Source: Rhodopseudomonas sp. BR0M22
GTDB lineage: Bacteria; Pseudomonadota; Alphaproteobacteria; Rhizobiales; Xanthobacteraceae
DNA length: 64,000 nt
Assembly (NCBI RefSeq): GCF_010907035.1
Contig: NZ_QUMK01000011.1
Span: 1 to 64,000, forward strand
Reading direction: 5' to 3'
Shown: one piece after another, positions 920-18,111 of the stretch
Numbering within the stretch: position 1 is the first letter of the stretch
Layout of the letters: each line of letters opens with the position of its first letter
Program-made: the position numbers and the translations under genes
Notes under the pieces: generated by a model
What the model saw: the letters and a program-made list of their open reading frames with translations, nothing else
What the model was told of the DNA's origin: nothing
Database searches by the model: none

Positions 920-2416
920 ATGCGCACGGTCGGGCATTTCATCGGCGGCAAAGAGGTCGAGGGCAAGTCGGGGCGTTTCGCCGACGTGTTCGAGCCGATG
1001 ACCGGCGAGGTGAAGGCCAAAGTCGCCCTCGCCACCAAAGCCGAGCTCCGCGCAGCGGTTGAAAACGCCAAGGCCGCGCAGCCGGAATGGGGCGCCACCA
1101 ACCCGCAGCGCCGCGCCCGCGTGTTGATGAAGTTCCTCGAATTGGTGCAGCGCGATTACGACAAGCTCGCTGAGCTGCTCGCGCGCGAACATGGCAAGAC
1201 CATCCCCGACGCCAAGGGCGACATCCAGCGCGGCCTCGAAGTCGCCGAGTTCGCCTGCGGCATTCCGCATCTGATGAAGGGCGAATACACCGAGGGCGCC
1301 GGCCCCGGCATCGACATCTATTCGATGCGCCAGCCGCTCGGCGTCGTCGCCGGCATCACGCCGTTCAACTTCCCGGCGATGATCCCGATGTGGAAGTTCG
1401 CGCCCGCAATCGCCTGCGGCAACGCCTTCATCCTGAAGCCGTCGGAGCGTGACCCCGGCGTGCCGATGGCGCTGGCGGCGCTGATGCTCGAGGCCGGCCT
1501 GCCGCCGGGCATCCTCAACGTCGTCAACGGCGACAAGGAAGCGGTCGACGCCATCCTCGATGATCCGGACATCAAGGCGGTGGGCTTCGTCGGCTCCTCG
1601 CCGATCGCGCAGTACATTTATGAGCGCGCGGCGCAGACCGGCAAGCGCGCGCAGTGCTTCGGCGGCGCCAAGAACCACGCCATCATCATGCCGGATGCCG
1701 ACATCGACCAGACCGTCGACGCGCTGATCGGCGCCGGCTACGGCTCGGCGGGCGAACGCTGCATGGCGATCTCGGTCGCGGTGCCGGTCGGCAAGGCCAC
1801 TGCGGATGCGTTGATGGACAAGCTGATCCCGCGCGTCGAAGCACTGAAGATCGGTCCGTCGACCGATCCGACCGCCGATTACGGCCCGCTGGTGACCAAG
1901 GAAGCGCTGGAGCGCGTCAAGAACTACGTCGACATCGGCGTCAAGGAAGGCGCGACGCTCGCGGTCGACGGCCGCGGCTTCAAGATGCAGGGCTACGAGA
2001 AAGGCTTCTACATGGGCGGCTGTCTGTTCGACAACGTCACCAAGGACATGCGGATCTACAAGGAAGAGATCTTCGGCCCCGTCCTAAGCGTCGTCCGCGC
2101 CCATGATTATGCCGAAGCGCTGTCGCTGCCGTCCGACCACGACTACGGCAACGGCGTCGCGATCTTCACCCGCGACGGCGACGCCGCCCGCGACTTTGCG
2201 GCGAAAGTGAACGTCGGCATGGTCGGCATCAACGTGCCGATCCCGGTGCCGATCGCCTACTACACCTTCGGCGGCTGGAAGAAGTCCGGCTTCGGCGACC
2301 TCAATCAGCATGGCCCGGATTCGATCCGGTTCTACACCAAGACCAAGACCGTCACCTCGCGCTGGCCGTCGGGCGTCAAGGAAGGCGCGGAGTTCTCGAT
2401 CCCGCTGATGAAGTAA
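920..2416 (+). CDS. mmsA: methylmalonate-semialdehyde dehydrogenase (CoA-acylating)
   Basis: A 498-residue aldehyde dehydrogenase that oxidises methylmalonate semialdehyde (and malonate semialdehyde) to propionyl-CoA (or acetyl-CoA) in valine catabolism. Family hallmarks are the NAD-binding stretch TPFNFPAMIPMW (about 147-158), FGGAKNHAIIMPDAD (about 247-261) and the catalytic cysteine 281 in GSAGERCMAIS. The length matches the family. I chose the ATG at 920 rather than the in-frame ATG at 803 because AGGAGG sits just upstream and the protein then starts at MRTVGHFIGG. It is the first gene of an operon with acyl-CoA dehydrogenase, hydroxyisobutyryl-CoA hydrolase and mmsB, which supports the substrate assignment. 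Confidence 0.93.
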   Translation: MRTVGHFIGGKEVEGKSGRFADVFEPMTGEVKAKVALATKAELRAAVENAKAAQPEWGATNPQRRARVLMKFLELVQRDYDKLAELLAREHGKTIPDAKGDIQRGLEVAEFACGIPHLMKGEYTEGAGPGIDIYSMRQPLGVVAGITPFNFPAMIPMWKFAPAIACGNAFILKPSERDPGVPMALAALMLEAGLPPGILNVVNGDKEAVDAILDDPDIKAVGFVGSSPIAQYIYERAAQTGKRAQCFGGAKNHAIIMPDADIDQTVDALIGAGYGSAGERCMAISVAVPVGKATADALMDKLIPRVEALKIGPSTDPTADYGPLVTKEALERVKNYVDIGVKEGATLAVDGRGFKMQGYEKGFYMGGCLFDNVTKDMRIYKEEIFGPVLSVVRAHDYAEALSLPSDHDYGNGVAIFTRDGDAARDFAAKVNVGMVGINVPIPVPIAYYTFGGWKKSGFGDLNQHGPDSIRFYTKTKTVTSRWPSGVKEGAEFSIPLMK

Positions 2417-2465
2417 GCTAGGTTTCGGAGAGGATTGTCGTGCCGTCAGCATGATGGAGGGAACG

Positions 2466-2693
2466 ATGGCTGAAGTAGTCATTCCTGATGTCGCCGAGGA
2501 GACGATTGCCATCTACCGGGAGCGGGCGCGGCTTCACGGTCGCTCGCTCGAGGAAGAGTTGCGCGACCTCCTCGAGCGCCACCGCCCGTTCTCGCGAGCA
2601 GAGCGGGCGGCGCTGTCACGACGGTTCCTGTCCGAGTATCCGGACGTTCAGCCGGCGCTGACCGCCGAGGAACGACGCGAAGGGCTGATGTGA
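2466..2693 (+). CDS. FitA/VapB-like ribbon-helix-helix antitoxin
   Basis: A 75-residue protein starting MAEVVIPDVAEETIAIYRER. It has a short beta strand and two helices at the N-terminus, as in FitA-type ribbon-helix-helix antitoxins, and a charged C-terminus that would wrap the partner toxin. The start is placed at 2466 because GGAGGG lies five bases upstream; in-frame ATGs at 2451 and 2454 are less well placed. The stop is one base before the TTG start of the PIN toxin, so the two are co-translated. The expected role is to neutralise the toxin and repress the shared promoter. It sits inside a valine catabolism operon, which is unusual. Confidence 0.8.
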   Translation: MAEVVIPDVAEETIAIYRERARLHGRSLEEELRDLLERHRPFSRAERAALSRRFLSEYPDVQPALTAEERREGLM

Positions 2694-2694
2694 A

Positions 2695-3114
2695 TTGGCC
2701 TATCTCGTCGACGCCAGCGTGGCGGTGAAGTGGCTCGTCACCGAGGAGGACAGCGAGCGGGCCCATGCGCTGCTCGATTCCGATGCCGACTTGCTGGCGC
2801 CGCGATTTATCTTCGACGAGGTGGCTAACGTTCTCTGGAAGAAATGCAGGCTCGGGTTGCTGCAGCCGGACGATGCGATCAGCCGAATGCATCAGCTTCC
2901 CGGATTTTTCGATCAGATCGTTGCCGATGCCGATGTGGGCAAAGTCCTCGCGCTTGCGATCAAACTCGACCATCCTGTTTACGATTGCATCTATCTGCAA
3001 GCGGCGCTCGATCTGGGCTTCCCGCTGGTCACGGCCGACACCCGATTGACCAGGAAGACTCGACAGATTCCGACGCTGACCATTCATGACCTCGCCAAGA
3101 TGGACATGCCTTGA
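2695..3114 (+). CDS. PIN-domain toxin ribonuclease (VapC family)
   Basis: A 139-residue PIN domain. The acidic metal-binding residues are seen in [10 protein letters not shown] (Asp near residue 6), [12 protein letters not shown] (Glu near 43), YDCIYLQ (Asp near 99) and LVTADTRL (Asp near 117), the usual pattern of an Mg-dependent RNase that cleaves tRNA or other RNA. The start must be TTG at 2695; no ATG or GTG in frame lies between the antitoxin stop and the conserved first strand. Its stop (TGA at 3112-3114) overlaps the TTG start of the downstream acyl-CoA dehydrogenase, implying translational coupling. All acidic residues are present, so the toxin is probably functional. Confidence 0.85.
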
Positions 3115-4268
3115 CAGCCATTGACCAGTTTTCCCTCAACGAAGACCAGCGCGCCATTCGTGACATGGCGCGCGACTTCGCGGCCGAGAAGATCGCGCCG
3201 CATGCGCTGAAATGGGATGAAGACAAGCACCTGCCGCTGGACGTGATCCGCGAAGCGGCGGCGCTCGGCATCGGCGGCATCTACATCCGCGACGATGTCG
3301 GCGGTAGCGCGATGACCCGGTTCGACGCGGCGCTGATCTTTGAGGCGCTTGCGACCGGCTGTCCGTCGGTGTCGGCGTTCATTTCCATCCACAACATGGC
3401 GGCGTGGATGATCGACAGCTACGGCTCCGACGCGCAGCGTCAGCGCTGGCTGCCGAAGCTGTGCAGCATGGAGCAGGTCGCCAGCTACTGCCTGACCGAA
3501 CCCGGCTCCGGCTCGGATGCCGCGGCGCTGCGCACCCGCGCGGTGCGCGACGGCGATCACTACATCCTTGATGGCCAGAAGCAGTTCATCTCCGGCGCCG
3601 GCGCCAATGATCTGTACGTCGTAATGGTGCGCACCGGCGGCGATGGCCCCGGCGGCATCTCGACGCTGGTGGTCGAGAAGGACACGCCCGGCCTGTCGTT
3701 CGGCGCCAACGAGCGCAAGATGGGCTGGAACGCGCAGCCGACCCGCACCGTGATTTTCGAGAACGCGCGGGTGCCGGTCGCCAACCGACTCGGCGACGAA
3801 GGCATCGGCTTCAAGATCGCGATGGCCGGTCTCGACGGCGGCCGGCTCAACATCGGCGCCTGTTCGCTCGGCGGCGCGCAAGCCGCGCTCGATAAGACGC
3901 TCGCTTACATGAAAGAGCGTAAGGCGTTCGGCAAACGGCTCGACGAATTCCAGGCGCTGCAATTCCGGCTTGCCGACATGGCGACCGAATTGGAGGCTGC
4001 GCGCACGCTGCTGTGGCGCGCCGCCGCGGCGCTCGACCGCAAGGATGCGGACGCCACCAAGCTGTGCGCGATGGCCAAGCGCTTCGCCACCGATGCCGGC
4101 TTTGCGGTCGCCAACGAGGCGTTGCAGCTGCATGGCGGCTACGGCTATCTCGCCGAATACGGCATCGAGAAACTGGTGCGTGACCTGCGCGTCCACCAGA
4201 TCCTCGAAGGCACCAACGAAATCATGCGGCTGATCGTGTCGCGCAAGCTGCTCGAGGCCAATCGATGA
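3111..4268 (+). CDS. acyl-CoA dehydrogenase, probable isobutyryl-CoA dehydrogenase
   Basis: A 385-residue FAD-dependent acyl-CoA dehydrogenase, the usual length for the soluble homotetrameric family. It shows the N-terminal [18 protein letters not shown], the flavin/substrate segment [18 protein letters not shown], and the C-terminal [18 protein letters not shown] and [18 protein letters not shown], which holds the catalytic glutamate region. Its position between mmsA and the 3-hydroxyisobutyryl-CoA hydrolase makes isobutyryl-CoA (valine pathway) the likely substrate; this is inference from context. The start is TTG at 3111, overlapping the VapC stop, because no other start precedes the conserved N-terminus. 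Its 3' end overlaps the next gene by four bases (ATGA). Confidence 0.88.
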
Positions 4269-12460: not shown

Positions 12461-12549
12461 GCGGGCGTGGCGAAATTGGTAGACGCAAGGGACTTAAAAT
12501 CCCTCGGCTCGAAAGAGCTGTGCCGGTTCGACCCCGGCCGCCCGCACCA
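12461..12549 (+). tRNA. tRNA-Leu (anticodon UAA)
   Basis: A class II tRNA with encoded CCA. The acceptor stem is GCGGGCG/CGCCCGC; the D-arm is TGGCGAAATTGGTAGACGC; the anticodon loop reads CTTAAAA with anticodon TAA; the long variable arm is CTCGGCTCGAAAGAGCTG; and the T-arm is GCCGGTTCGACCCCGGC. The gene is intact. Its last 60 bases are repeated at 18052-18111, so its 3' half is the attachment site of the island that follows. Confidence 0.97.
12490..12549 (+). repeat. left attachment repeat (attL) in tRNA-Leu
   Basis: These 60 bases, from GGACTTAAAATCCC in the anticodon arm to the terminal CACCA, are identical to 18052-18111. The match stops exactly at the encoded CCA on the right and one base before GGACTT on the left. 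This is the usual target of tRNA-specific tyrosine recombinases. Confidence 0.92.
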
Positions 12550-12659: not shown

Positions 12660-13208
12660 ATGATGAAGCTAACCAATCGGCGCAGGGCCGAGCTTGCCAA
12701 TGCGAAGGCGAGCGCGGAGCGAGCACGAGCCAAATACCATAGCCTGATGGAACGGTCTTACCTCGATCCGGAATCAGCCGAACGGAAGATGGAGGTCTAT
12801 CGCGCAAAGCACGGCGACAAGGCTCTTCAAGAAAAATTGGCCGACAATGCGCGCAAGACGGCGTTTGGCCGTCGGCCAGGCAGCATTGCGTCGCGGGACG
12901 GCTACGCTCCCGGTGCAGGTGAACGCAGGGAAGGCTCTCATATTGCCCGGCAGTATCTGCCTGAAGCGACCCTTGAGAAGATCAGGGCGGAGGAGCGGCT
13001 GAAATACGCCGAGCGAGCCGCAGGCGGCGATATGCTGTCTGCGGAGAAACAGCAGCCTGACAAACCGGAAACCAGAGAGGCAGCGCCCCGCGCGGGAAAG
13101 AGCTTCAAACAAAAGCTGGCAGATCAACAAATGACGTCTTCGAAGGATAAGGCAGCCCTCGACCGGCTCAAAGCGGATCGGGGAAAAGACAGGGACATTG
13201 AACGGTAA
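12660..13208 (+). CDS. hypothetical charged protein, possible relaxase-tail remnant
   Basis: I do not recognise this 182-residue protein securely. It is very rich in Lys, Arg, Glu and Ala, with long predicted helices, no membrane segment and no cysteine motif. The sequence style (ERARAKYHSLMER, KSFKQKLADQQ, a C-terminus ending RGKDRDIER) resembles the C-terminal tails of rhizobial conjugative relaxases or other mobilisation proteins, so it may be a decayed mobilisation gene; this is a weak inference. It starts at either of two tandem ATGs (12660, 12663) and is the first gene of the island. A hairpin follows at 13239-13264. Confidence 0.55.
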   Translation: MMKLTNRRRAELANAKASAERARAKYHSLMERSYLDPESAERKMEVYRAKHGDKALQEKLADNARKTAFGRRPGSIASRDGYAPGAGERREGSHIARQYLPEATLEKIRAEERLKYAERAAGGDMLSAEKQQPDKPETREAAPRAGKSFKQKLADQQMTSSKDKAALDRLKADRGKDRDIER

Positions 13209-13264: not shown

Positions 13265-13478
13265 GTTCGTCGAATAACCATTCAATCGATGTGGTAGTAT
13301 ATACATCGGAGACGATAATGCGTGAATATTTTCGTGCCGCCCTAAGCGGCGAAGATAGTCGTGGTGGCTAGAATGCCTTGTGAGTGGCATCCTATCCCGG
13401 AGTCTCCTTCGCTGGCACCAGAGTGATTTTATTTGCCGGCTGATGATAGAGTTAAGAAGACCAATGAGGAGCTATAAA

Positions 13479-15953
13479 GTGGAAATAGATTTCGACAAAC
13501 TGATTGGTGATGATGAGAGCTTGCCGACAAATCCGCGCGATATTTTCCTGACGCTCGACAAAAGCCCGGAATTTTCATTCCTTCGCGATATTCAAGCTGA
13601 TGTATTGGACTCGTGGTACGAGGATCCGGATAGGCGCGACGCGGTCATAAAGCTAAACGTTGGCTCTGGCAAAACACTTGTTGGGCTGCTCGTCCTTAAG
13701 AGTTCTCTCAATGCGTGTGTGGGTCCGGCCGTATTCATTTGCCCCGACAATTTCCTTGTCGAACAAGTTATTGCTGAGGCCGAGCGCCTCGGCATAGATG
13801 CGACGACTGACGTCCACGACATTGCGTTCCGCTCTGGAGGCAAGATTCTTGTCACAAATATATACAAACTCTTCAATGGAAAGTCTGTTTTCGGAGTTGG
13901 CCCCCTAGGAGAGCGCATCGAAATCGGCGCTCTAGTTATCGACGATGCGCATGCGTGCCTCCAGTCGGTCATAGAGCAGTTTAGGGTGCGACTCCCTAAT
14001 ACGCATCCAGTGTACGATTGGATTCTCAAGAATTTTGGGCCTGCGATGAAGCGCCAAAGTTCGTACACCCACTTATCAATCGTTTCGGGAGATCCACAAT
14101 ACTATCAAGAGATTCCCTTTTGGAATGTCCAAGAACAGGCCGATGCTCTTCTCAAAGTAATGCATGACAGCCGCGAGACCGAAGAACTAAAATTTACGTT
14201 CCCCTTTATAGCGGATGTGCTCCCTCTGTCGCGTATTGTCATCAGTGGGCGGGAAGTAGAGATAACGCCAATGTGCCCGCCCACGGATCTGGTGAATTCG
14301 TTTCGAAATGCAAAGCGGCGAATCTATATGACCGCTACGTTGTCTGATGACAGCATCCTGGTAACCCATTTCGGCGCCCAAGCCGATAAGCTCACTGGCG
14401 CAATCACGGCCGCCTCATCCCAGGCGATGGGTGAGCGCATGATCATAATGCCTCAGGAGATCAATCCCGACATCACATTACCAGATGTCAAAGGTATGTT
14501 GGCGAAGGTAGCTAAGAATTACAATGTCGTTGTTATTGTGCCGTCTAAGAAGGTGGCCGACGAGTGGGCAGATGTGGCAAATCAAACTCTTGTGGGGGAC
14601 GCAGTTTCACAAGGTGTGGCGAAATTGAAGGAAAAGCATGTCGGCTTGACTGTGCTTGTAAATCGTTACGATGGAATAGATTTGCCGAAGGAGGCCTGTC
14701 GCCTTCTTGCCATAGTCGATCTGCCTGAGGCTGCGTCTTTACTGGATAGGGTTGACACGAGCATTCTTGGGAGTTCGGCGATCGGGTTGCGCCGACAAAT
14801 TCAAAGAATCGAACAAGGAATGGGGCGTGGAGTAAGATCGACTGATGATCACTGCGCAGTTGTGCTTTTCGGAGCAAAGCTAACAGAAAGGCTCCTTTCG
14901 AAGGATGGTCGTGAAATGCTCACTCCTGCCACACAGGCTCAATTGGCGCTTTCCAGGCAGTTGGCAAAGCAAATCGGTGGGGCCACCATTGGTGACATAG
15001 AGGTCGTTATTAAGAAGTGTCTTGAGCGTGATAAGGGGTGGATTGCGGCGAGTAAGAAGGCTCTCCTGAAGGCTGTAAAGCAGCCTGGTCTGAACCTTGA
15101 TAGTGGGCAGATAGCACTCAAGCGGGCATTCGACGAAGCGAGATATAACGAGCATACCAAGGCAGCCGCGACATTGGCAGATGTCGCTAACGGCACAGAT
15201 GATGAACCATACAAGGCTTGGCTTAAGGTTCGTACTGCCGAAATGACGAATTTTTTCGACAGGGCGGAAGCTCAGCGTATTCTGCAATCCGCATACCGGT
15301 TGAATCGAAATGCAATGCGGCCGGTCGAGGGCGTCTCCTATGAGAAACTCAAGGCGCAAAAGGGCGCGCAGGCTATTGCAGTTCAAGCCTTCTTTCGGGA
15401 TCGCTTTCTTGAAACTCCTGAGAGAATTCTTTTCGCGCAGAGTCTTAGCGATGCCCTAGTGTTTGAGCCAGATGCGGCAGACAAGTTCGAGCAAGCCGTA
15501 CTTGATTTGGGGTTGGCAATTGGGATTACCTCGCAGAGACCGGAGAAGCAATTGGGAGAGGGCCCCGATAACCTTTGGAGATTTAGAGATGGTCGATTCT
15601 TGGTCGTTGAATGTAAGAATGGATCGACCTCGACAAACGGGATTTCGAAGACTGAGCTAGGGCAGCTGGAGCAGGCAGATACGTGGTTTAATGAGCGATA
15701 CGGGAACGAAGAACGTATCCCAGTAATCATCCATCCGTTGAATTACCTTGGTCCGCAGGCGAGCGCTCCAAAAGGTCTCAGGGTGATTAGCAAGAGCAAG
15801 CTTGAAGCGTTGAGGCATGCACTCGTGAGTTTTGTAAAGGCGATATCGATTGATAGTGTGCTGAGCAATGAAATGCGGATCAAAGAGGCACTGGAGACGC
15901 ATAAGCTTTCCGAGAGTCTCTTTCTTGGAGCGTTTTCGGTGGGCCCAAAATAG
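13479..15953 (+). CDS. SF2 helicase fused to PD-(D/E)XK nuclease, putative defence protein
   Basis: An 824-residue protein starting at GTG 13479, chosen because AGGAG lies seven bases upstream. N-terminal superfamily 2 helicase: Q-like motif FLRDIQADVLDSW (34-46), Walker A LNVGSGKT (59-66), motif II as DDAH (155-158) instead of DEAH, motif III YMTATLSDD (283-291), motif V NRYDGIDLP (395-403) and motif VI QGMGRGVRS (446-454). A helical linker follows. The C-terminus has a nuclease-like signature: GPDNLW (Asp697) then FLVVECKNG (Glu711-x-Lys713) and a downstream QLEQADTWF helix, as in Mrr/PD-(D/E)XK restriction folds. It has no methyltransferase or DNA-specificity partner nearby. It probably unwinds and cuts foreign nucleic acid. 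The exact family is not recognised. Confidence 0.82.
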   Translation: MEIDFDKLIGDDESLPTNPRDIFLTLDKSPEFSFLRDIQADVLDSWYEDPDRRDAVIKLNVGSGKTLVGLLVLKSSLNACVGPAVFICPDNFLVEQVIAEAERLGIDATTDVHDIAFRSGGKILVTNIYKLFNGKSVFGVGPLGERIEIGALVIDDAHACLQSVIEQFRVRLPNTHPVYDWILKNFGPAMKRQSSYTHLSIVSGDPQYYQEIPFWNVQEQADALLKVMHDSRETEELKFTFPFIADVLPLSRIVISGREVEITPMCPPTDLVNSFRNAKRRIYMTATLSDDSILVTHFGAQADKLTGAITAASSQAMGERMIIMPQEINPDITLPDVKGMLAKVAKNYNVVVIVPSKKVADEWADVANQTLVGDAVSQGVAKLKEKHVGLTVLVNRYDGIDLPKEACRLLAIVDLPEAASLLDRVDTSILGSSAIGLRRQIQRIEQGMGRGVRSTDDHCAVVLFGAKLTERLLSKDGREMLTPATQAQLALSRQLAKQIGGATIGDIEVVIKKCLERDKGWIAASKKALLKAVKQPGLNLDSGQIALKRAFDEARYNEHTKAAATLADVANGTDDEPYKAWLKVRTAEMTNFFDRAEAQRILQSAYRLNRNAMRPVEGVSYEKLKAQKGAQAIAVQAFFRDRFLETPERILFAQSLSDALVFEPDAADKFEQAVLDLGLAIGITSQRPEKQLGEGPDNLWRFRDGRFLVVECKNGSTSTNGISKTELGQLEQADTWFNERYGNEERIPVIIHPLNYLGPQASAPKGLRVISKSKLEALRHALVSFVKAISIDSVLSNEMRIKEALETHKLSESLFLGAFSVGPK

Positions 15954-16407
15954 AAAAGAGACTGTCGGAGCGCTAAGTGGATCTCAACAAGTCTTGCTAG
16001 CCGCGAGTCTTGGCCCCACATACAGACGCGGAAACCATCGGTCCAAGACCGCGAGCGGGAAGCCGAGTTGCACAGGTGAGCGACACCAAGAGGCTTTGTT
16101 CAATAAGGGGATTGAGCACCGTTCGTGCTTGGCGTTCCTGATAAGCTGCCAGTTCGGGAGCTTTGCCGCGCGAGATCATCTCGCGGCAGAGCAGGGCTTC
16201 GCACAGCAGCCGCCAGTTGCCTTTTGGGGAGGTGGCCGGCACTCGTTTCTTCTTCACATCAGATTTCGATGCGGCATTTCGGTTCGCCGGGTTCAAAGGG
16301 GATTACATAAAGACTATCTTGTTCGATGCAGTGGATAAAGCTACCAGGTTGGCTTGGATATCGATCATTCACATCAACAACAGGGCTGGATGCTCCGGAG
16401 GGAGCGA
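15954..16407. other. island segment without a supported gene
   Basis: About 450 bases between the convergent helicase-nuclease and Fic genes. A minus-strand frame at 15997-16296 encodes 99 residues, including a plausible stretch WRLLCEALLCREMISRGKAP, but it has no recognisable domain and no good ribosome site. It could be a relic of another island gene. Confidence 0.4.
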
Positions 16408-17511
16408 TTAGTCCAACTTCAGGTGATAGCGAGTATAGCGCAATTCACCTGTTCGGGTCAGAGCGTCCTTTGCAACAAGGTCTTGTAGATCGCGCGTGGC
16501 GGTGGAGCGGGTCGCCTTGGTGATGGTGATGTAGTTCTCTGCGCTCAGGCCGCCTTTGAAGCCTTCGATCCCTTCCTCGAACATGCGCGCGATGGCCTTC
16601 TCTTGCCTTTCATTCAATTGGCCACGCAGGCGCTCGTAGAATCGGGTCTTGGCAAGGGAGAACTCGACCCGCTTGTTGGTGTTGTCCTGAGCTTCAAGGA
16701 CCGTCTTCCCGAAATAGACGAGCCAGTCGGTGACCTCTGTCGACTTGTTATTGAGTTCCAAGGCGTCGTAGTAGGCTTTCCGTTTGTGTTGTATGGTGTA
16801 GGCGAGGGCGATGAGAGTGGGCTGGTTGAGGTTTTGTGCCAGTGATTTTTCAGCCAAGGCACGCGCGATCCGCCCGTTGCCATCTTCAAATGGGTGAATG
16901 CTGACAAAGTAGAGGTGAGCAAGCCCGGCGCGTGTGAGCGCGGGGAGCGCTTGCGGGCCGCCGGGAGCGGTTTCGTTAAACCAGTTGATGAAAGCCGTCA
17001 TTTCCTCCGTCACGCGCTCTGACGGTGGTGCTTCGAAGTGGACTTTGCGGTGTGCGATTGGGCCTGACACGACCTGCATGGGGTCGGCGTGAGTCCGATA
17101 GGCCCCCACCGTCTGAATCGACTTCGTTCCCGCCATGAGCATCTGGTGCCACTCGAACAGCGTCTCATGGGTGAGAGGCTCATCAAACCTGCGATAGAGG
17201 TCGGCCATCATTTGAGCGATGCCGCGTTCGGCCGCTGGCACGCCAGGCCGATCCTTCGCGAGGCCAAACTGATAGCGAAGTGAGGACTGCACGCTATCGC
17301 GGTTCAGGATCTCCCCCTCGATTTCTGAGGTCTTGAGGGCTTCCTCACTGATCAACTCGATGCGGAGATTGGTCTGTTCATCTTGGCTGACATGCTTGAA
17401 GGCTCCGATGAACTCACCGGAGCGCAAGAGAAAATCGCTTTCAAATTTCTCGAACCCTTTGGTTTCGTAAGAAAATACGGGCCAGTTTGGGTCCTCCCAA
17501 TTCCAAGGCAT
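16408..17511 (-). CDS. Fic-domain AMP-transferase with N-terminal inhibitory helix and C-terminal winged helix
   Basis: A 367-residue class II Fic protein. The N-terminus (WNWEDPNWPVFSYE) is the DUF4172-type domain. The inhibitory motif (S/T)xxxE(G/N) is seen as TSEIEG (61-66). The Fic active site HPFEDGNGRIAR is at 206-217 and is complete, including the catalytic His206. The C-terminal 90 residues resemble a winged helix. It would transfer AMP to a protein target and be held inactive by its own helix. The ribosome site lies in the middle of a perfect palindrome just upstream, which suggests autoregulation by the winged helix. It is island cargo and could be a toxin-like or defence gene. Confidence 0.9.
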   Translation of the reverse strand: MPWNWEDPNWPVFSYETKGFEKFESDFLLRSGEFIGAFKHVSQDEQTNLRIELISEEALKTSEIEGEILNRDSVQSSLRYQFGLAKDRPGVPAAERGIAQMMADLYRRFDEPLTHETLFEWHQMLMAGTKSIQTVGAYRTHADPMQVVSGPIAHRKVHFEAPPSERVTEEMTAFINWFNETAPGGPQALPALTRAGLAHLYFVSIHPFEDGNGRIARALAEKSLAQNLNQPTLIALAYTIQHKRKAYYDALELNNKSTEVTDWLVYFGKTVLEAQDNTNKRVEFSLAKTRFYERLRGQLNERQEKAIARMFEEGIEGFKGGLSAENYITITKATRSTATRDLQDLVAKDALTRTGELRYTRYHLKLD

Positions 17512-18051: not shown

Positions 18052-18111
18052 GGACTTAAAATCCCTCGGCTCGAAAGAGCTGTGCCGGTTCGACCCCGGC
18101 CGCCCGCACCA
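18052..18111 (+). repeat. right attachment repeat (attR), tRNA-Leu 3' fragment
   Basis: An exact 60-base copy of the end of tRNA-Leu (12490-12549), including anticodon loop, variable arm, T-arm and CCA. The bases before it do not continue the tRNA, so it is not a functional tRNA. It marks the right border of the island and the original chromosomal continuation. Confidence 0.92.

Follow-up and report, generated by a model that had tools for sequence, protein, structure and literature searches.

The 64,000-nucleotide window analysed here (positions 1 to 64,000 of contig NZ_QUMK01000011.1 from Rhodopseudomonas sp. BR0M22) carries a forward-strand gene at 13479-15953 whose 824-residue product, judged from homology and a structure model, is in all likelihood a full-length member of the Hna family, an already described one-gene defence. 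We put the probability of this reading, taken jointly with the mechanism set out below, at about 85%. The initial annotation had proposed an unclassified stand-alone fusion of a helicase with a PD-(D/E)XK nuclease, acting as a one-gene defence system and possibly of a new type. Homology and predicted fold favour a one-gene defence system as the best reading of the gene, but the novelty has to be given up, as Hna (PDC-S28 in PADLOC) has already been published as an abortive-infection system made up of one gene, and its structures have been solved. Membership of a well-described family with another role had been named as grounds against the proposal; the protein does belong to a well-described family, which tells against its novelty, although the role of that family is defence. 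Moving a putative new system into a known family saves discovery effort.

The PDC-S28 model PDLC04986 was the best PADLOC model for the window protein (960 bits, residues 3-820), as it was for Hna of Sinorhizobium meliloti (1020 bits), and an E. coli plasmid homologue scored 1051 bits. When the protein was compared with PDB chains by phmmer, Hna (10uj/9yhn/9ykj) was the sole match better than 0.001, with an E value of 5e-119, and window residues 3-812 aligned collinearly with Hna residues 2-830; a near-full-length match of this strength to a solved protein puts the frame and its motifs, as far as sequence can tell, beyond chance. S. meliloti Hna, read from pSymA (L033:17345-19882, reverse strand), is 30% identical to the window protein over residues 3-811. 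AlphaFold, given a 64-row alignment, returned a model with a mean predicted local distance difference test score (pLDDT) of 91.2 and a predicted template-modelling score (pTM) of 0.74, and a Foldseek search of the PDB with this model ranked the Hna monomer first (E 5e-66) and the Hna dimer chains second and third, followed by DinG and XPD. Pfam gave only the generic ResIII, DEAD and Helicase_C_2 domains, and an NCBIfam search of the 824-residue protein gave no match near the cut-offs. The two PDC-S28 models of PADLOC were considered as a divider between the branches of Hna and of the window protein and rejected, as Hna, like the window protein, is best matched by PDLC04986, and it is the distant L002 type that scores best with PDLC04987. 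L002 itself (1456-4026, genome G010) is a distant member of the same class within the genus, with 993 bits to PDLC04987 and 26% identity to the window protein.

The gene is intact, its frame running open from the GTG at 13479 through a stop codon whose last base is 15953, and the start is supported by the aligned homologues, whose own starts lie no more than a residue or two away. The superfamily 2 (SF2) helicase and nuclease motifs that had been named for the 824-residue protein are all present in the open frame, its translation and the alignment, as follows.

13466..13471, forward strand: GAGGAG, Shine-Dalgarno-like, 7 bases 5' of the GTG (read from the sequence)
13479..15953, forward strand: hna-family gene, 824 amino acids, GTG start, stop included
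13554..13595, forward strand: loop, residues 26-39, aligned with the Hna dimer loop and ATP site (alignment; roles from PMC13381803)
13662..13676, forward strand: Walker A GSGKT, residues 62-66 (translation, alignment)
13941..13952, forward strand: DDAH (Walker B), residues 155-158 (translation, alignment)
14331..14339, forward strand: TAT, helicase motif III, residues 285-287 (translation, alignment)
14814..14840, forward strand: QGMGRGVRS, helicase motif VI, residues 446-454 (translation, alignment)
15561..15578, forward strand: GPDNLW, residues 695-700, with P696/D697 equivalent to Hna P712/D713 (alignment)
15603..15623, forward strand: VVECKNG, residues 709-715, with E711/K713 equivalent to Hna E727/K729 (alignment)

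We collected 122 loci encoding a homologue and aligned 121 of them with the window protein to give 122 rows, locus L166 being left out as broken; the sample favours the window's branch because its alignment served as query. DDAH, which had been offered as a distinguishing motif, is common to the whole aligned family, Hna included (DD in 122/122 rows, H in 121/122), and was dropped as a special feature. The C-terminal PD-(D/E)XK signature stood up: its fold matches Hna in the Foldseek search of the model, D697 and E711 are invariant in all 122 rows, and K713 is found in 119, with H in the other three. In the distant members L008, L201 and L202 an H is aligned with the catalytic lysine (FEDHAG for ECK), which reflects either misalignment or an altered nuclease site.

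Hna is a single-effector abortive-infection protein present in ~2% of bacterial genomes, and the S. meliloti protein is a 3'-5' single-strand exonuclease that is inhibited by ATP (PMC13381803). The inhibition is exerted through a homodimer formed by the HEL1 loop residues T30, D31 and P34, and the single-stranded DNA-binding protein (SSB) of phage 5A activates Hna by competing at the dimer interface; the nuclease residues are P712, D713, E727 and K729, and the ATP site includes R36/Q39 (PMC13381803). According to two further papers, hna alone restores phage resistance (PMC12445080), and one E. coli Hna, which may not be the plasmid homologue in our tree, is also activated by SSB (PMC10732053). 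On the favoured reading, the window gene is a chromosomal, island-borne member of the family, and its single product combines a pair of SF2 motor domains, DinG/XPD-like in kind, with a PD-(D/E)XK nuclease at the C terminus. By analogy with Hna, the protein is most likely silent when ATP-bound and activated by a phage replication protein or by a DNA state produced by that protein. Enzymatic activity, ATP lock, trigger and abortive outcome are all ascribed to it on this analogy. An SSB of the host or the island was considered as a partner and set aside, the genome's one SSB gene lying on another contig.

The dimer loop differs between the two proteins, the window protein having P30/E31/F34 where Hna has T30/D31/P34, and the ATP-site residues R36/Q39 are kept. 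At position 34, the 102 rows clearly nearer the window protein than Hna carry Y (60 rows), F (21), R (17) or L (2), two have a gap and none has P, and 79 of the 102 have K or R at position 31; of the 10 rows nearer Hna (Hna among them), 9 have P34 and 7 have D31. Removal of rows more than 75% alike left Y/F34 in 38/47 and K/R31 in 36/47 of the window-side group, and P34 in 7/8 and D31 in 6/8 of the Hna-side group. R36 is present in 82/102 rows nearer the window protein and in 10/10 nearer Hna, and Q39 in 119 of the 121 homologues, the other two being gaps. In most members of the window's branch the loop reads F/Y-x-Y/F-P-R-D-V/I-Q, versus D-K-G-P-L-R-P-A-Q in Hna. F34 of the window protein follows its branch, and E31 is a mild change. 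A quick, non-bootstrapped tree of 70 rows placed the window protein in a 50-row branch (support 100) without S. meliloti Hna; the latter fell in a branch of 10 rows (support 100) that also contains homologues from E. coli and Salmonella but not the window protein, and the remaining 10 rows are more distant.

Since the dimer-loop residues are not kept in the window's branch, we expect from the alignment the same catalytic parts and an altered regulatory contact; this contact, and perhaps the trigger, may differ from those of Hna. A more tentative proposal, which we hold at clearly less than even odds, is that the window's branch, the larger one of the sampled Hna family, has the same nuclease and motor but a rebuilt regulatory loop, and that it uses another lock contact, released by a phage protein other than a gp2.5-like SSB. 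If this is true, the sensing of SSB through the dimer loop of Hna would be peculiar to a single branch. The loop is called highly conserved in PMC13381803; in the present sample it is conserved in Hna's own branch only. This opens the published regulatory model, an ATP-locked dimer opened by phage SSB, to a direct test in the other branch, to which the majority of the collected homologues belong.

Near-full-length matches (347 bits or more) were found in 6 of 398 genomes of the phylum. The 191/398 'matches' of the same search were rejected as a measure of prevalence: the next below the six scored 35 bits and 8 of 14 control genomes were also positive, so the rest are helicase-domain matches. 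Within the genus 2/16 genomes matched, one of them only distantly at 26%. Of 72,556 plasmid records 256 matched, 187 of them with 80% or more of the protein covered, and 109 of the 256 are conjugative and 81 mobilizable. Deposited phage records gave one match in 50,697, a Salmonella chromosome-type contig with integrative and conjugative element (ICE) genes, and viral (phage-type) contigs gave 33 loci. The occurrence on plasmids and viral contigs indicates that the family travels on mobile DNA. The many conjugative and mobilizable carriers, on which guarding against competitors would pay, would also fit a branch directed chiefly at plasmids or other mobile elements that enter the cell and not at phages, and a role in DNA repair, through ExoDinG-like single-strand processing, could be read from DinG and XPD as the fold neighbours after Hna and from PMC13381803, which likens Hna to ExoDinG. 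However, the patchy occurrence in the genus and the phylum speaks against repair, and the closest characterised homologue is a phage defence, which argues against either role; we regard such a shift of function within the family as improbable and favour phage defence.

In ten annotated homologue regions, judged by product names, restriction-modification, Shedu, toxin-antitoxin or TIR genes lie within ~8 kb in four, and in seven if ABC-three-component, RES-domain and helicase/phospholipase-D clusters are included; among the same neighbours, by name only, no candidate partner gene recurs. A neighbour set of 110 genes, out of 128 listed around 19 homologue loci (24 were eligible and the first 19 were used), matched 240 PADLOC models at E 1e-15, versus 8 for 110 control genes (of 119 listed, at hand-picked round-number positions in genomes of the phylum); the neighbour models overlap heavily, type I specificity subunits with three genes each making up 24 of the 25 shown, and the figure counts models, not genes. 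The defence-island enrichment of homologues that the initial annotation had looked to is suggested by this survey, though not strongly. A gene for an 'RHE_PE00001 family protein' lies ~8 kb or less from the hna homologue on three Rhizobiaceae plasmids (L206, L208, L211), possibly by mere proximity within the plasmid backbone.

Several observations weigh against the assignment of the window protein to Hna and its mechanism. Its identity to the tested Hna is only ~30%; T30 and P34 of the Hna loop are not kept and D31 is replaced by E31. Defence models (PADLOC, E 1e-10) are matched by only 3 of 20 immediate neighbours, at 2 of the first 10 loci, and in a limited set of papers no functional test of the window protein or of a member of its branch was seen. 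The whole-chain root-mean-square deviation (rmsd) of the model from the Hna monomer is 18 Å (template-modelling score 0.69), versus 4.0 Å from dimer chain B, which suggests another domain arrangement in the model and not another fold. The branch-specific loop and the low identity could be taken as marks of a new defence type with a mechanism unrelated to Hna, yet PADLOC model, fold, catalytic residues, length and one-gene form are all as in Hna, and we find this scarcely credible.

The gene lies in an island, a 5.6-kb insert between exact 60-bp repeats of tRNA-Leu(TAA) (12461-12549), as the initial annotation had placed it. Its further features are these.

12490..12549, forward strand: left 60-bp direct repeat, the 3' end of the tRNA gene, attL-like (repeat search)
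12660..13208, forward strand: 182-residue frame similar to the C-terminal region of MobA/MobL relaxases but lacking the relaxase domain (homology search)
15999..16338, reverse strand: remnant, with a broken frame, of the C-terminal part of a second Fic-type gene (comparison with relatives)
16408..17511, reverse strand: Fic protein, 367 amino acids, DUF4172 and Fic (Pfam), close to PADLOC SoFic
18052..18111, forward strand: right 60-bp direct repeat, attR-like, end of the island (exact copy; 0 matches in 100 shuffles)

The Fic gene was already known from that annotation, and the relaxase-like frame and the Fic-type remnant are added to the picture; the former matches the C-terminal part of MobA/MobL at 42.9-45.7% over about half its length in three plasmid records. 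No methyltransferase, specificity subunit or helicase-nuclease partner was seen in the island in a scan that took in not every small open reading frame, which agrees with the earlier claim. The 367-residue Fic protein matches SoFic at E 9.7e-43 and may be a second candidate for a single-gene defence on the island. The remnant corresponds to residues 328-443 of a 443-residue Fic-type protein that is intact in genome G003 (L081:2281-3612), where the order of this gene relative to the 367-residue Fic gene differs from that in the window.

Across the genus, tRNA-Leu(TAA) marks a hot spot for insertions, which lie between it and one and the same GNAT gene downstream (L081, L083, L084, L086, L087). 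G003 and G012 carry the same Fic gene at this tRNA (92-93% DNA identity), and other inserts hold a Fic/DOC protein (G001), a large nSTAND-type ATPase (G010) and, with weak profile support, a vWA/kinase-like cluster (G005). The hna gene looks like a recent arrival, specific to the species, at a site where cargo of this sort has inserted repeatedly.

A degenerate island could hold a decayed or silent passenger: no tyrosine integrase was found in it (the genome's four matches lie on other contigs; serine recombinases were not searched), its relaxase is a fragment and one Fic-type gene a remnant. Moreover, in the nearest relative found, L166 4156-5256 from an Antarctic Hyphomicrobiales metagenome-assembled genome, 78% identity extends over residues 1-334, beyond which the frame no longer resembles the family and stops at 366 residues; this break is either a broken gene or an assembly error. 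The window gene, however, has a full-length open frame, every one of the motifs and a good ribosome-binding site, and against L166 a DNA identity of 71.5% with a protein identity of 78% and a nonsynonymous divergence (dN) of 0.14 points to purifying selection since the two split. Decay is thereby very unlikely, and a working hna gene is preferred. Synonymous change between the two is saturated, too large to estimate, and a dN/dS ratio was abandoned.

Among known systems, Nhi, Hachiman (HamAB) and Gabija share with the window protein the use of a helicase and a nuclease in defence. Some defences of this kind sense phage SSB (PMC13381803, PMC10732053), and Hachiman is a two-gene complex (PMC12278908); no Nhi, HamA/HamB or GajA/GajB model is among the nine PADLOC families listed for the window protein at E up to 1. 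DinG, ExoDinG and XPD helicases share its motor fold in the Foldseek list, with weak DinG profile matches, but the window protein has in addition the C-terminal PD-(D/E)XK nuclease and is 12-16% identical to them in the listed structural alignments; it falls far below the DinG-type cut-offs (TIGR01407, 12.9 bits vs 547.7; NF005981, 10.6 vs 789). Hna (SMa2245; PDB 9yhn, 9ykj, 10uj) is likewise a single gene of similar length (845 amino acids vs 824), collinear over the whole length, with the same DDAH and SF2 motifs, R36/Q39, PD...ExK residues, predicted fold and best PADLOC model. The window protein differs from it in its ~30% identity, its separate and larger branch and its P30/E31/F34 loop, and in location, lying in a tRNA-Leu island whereas Hna is encoded on a megaplasmid.
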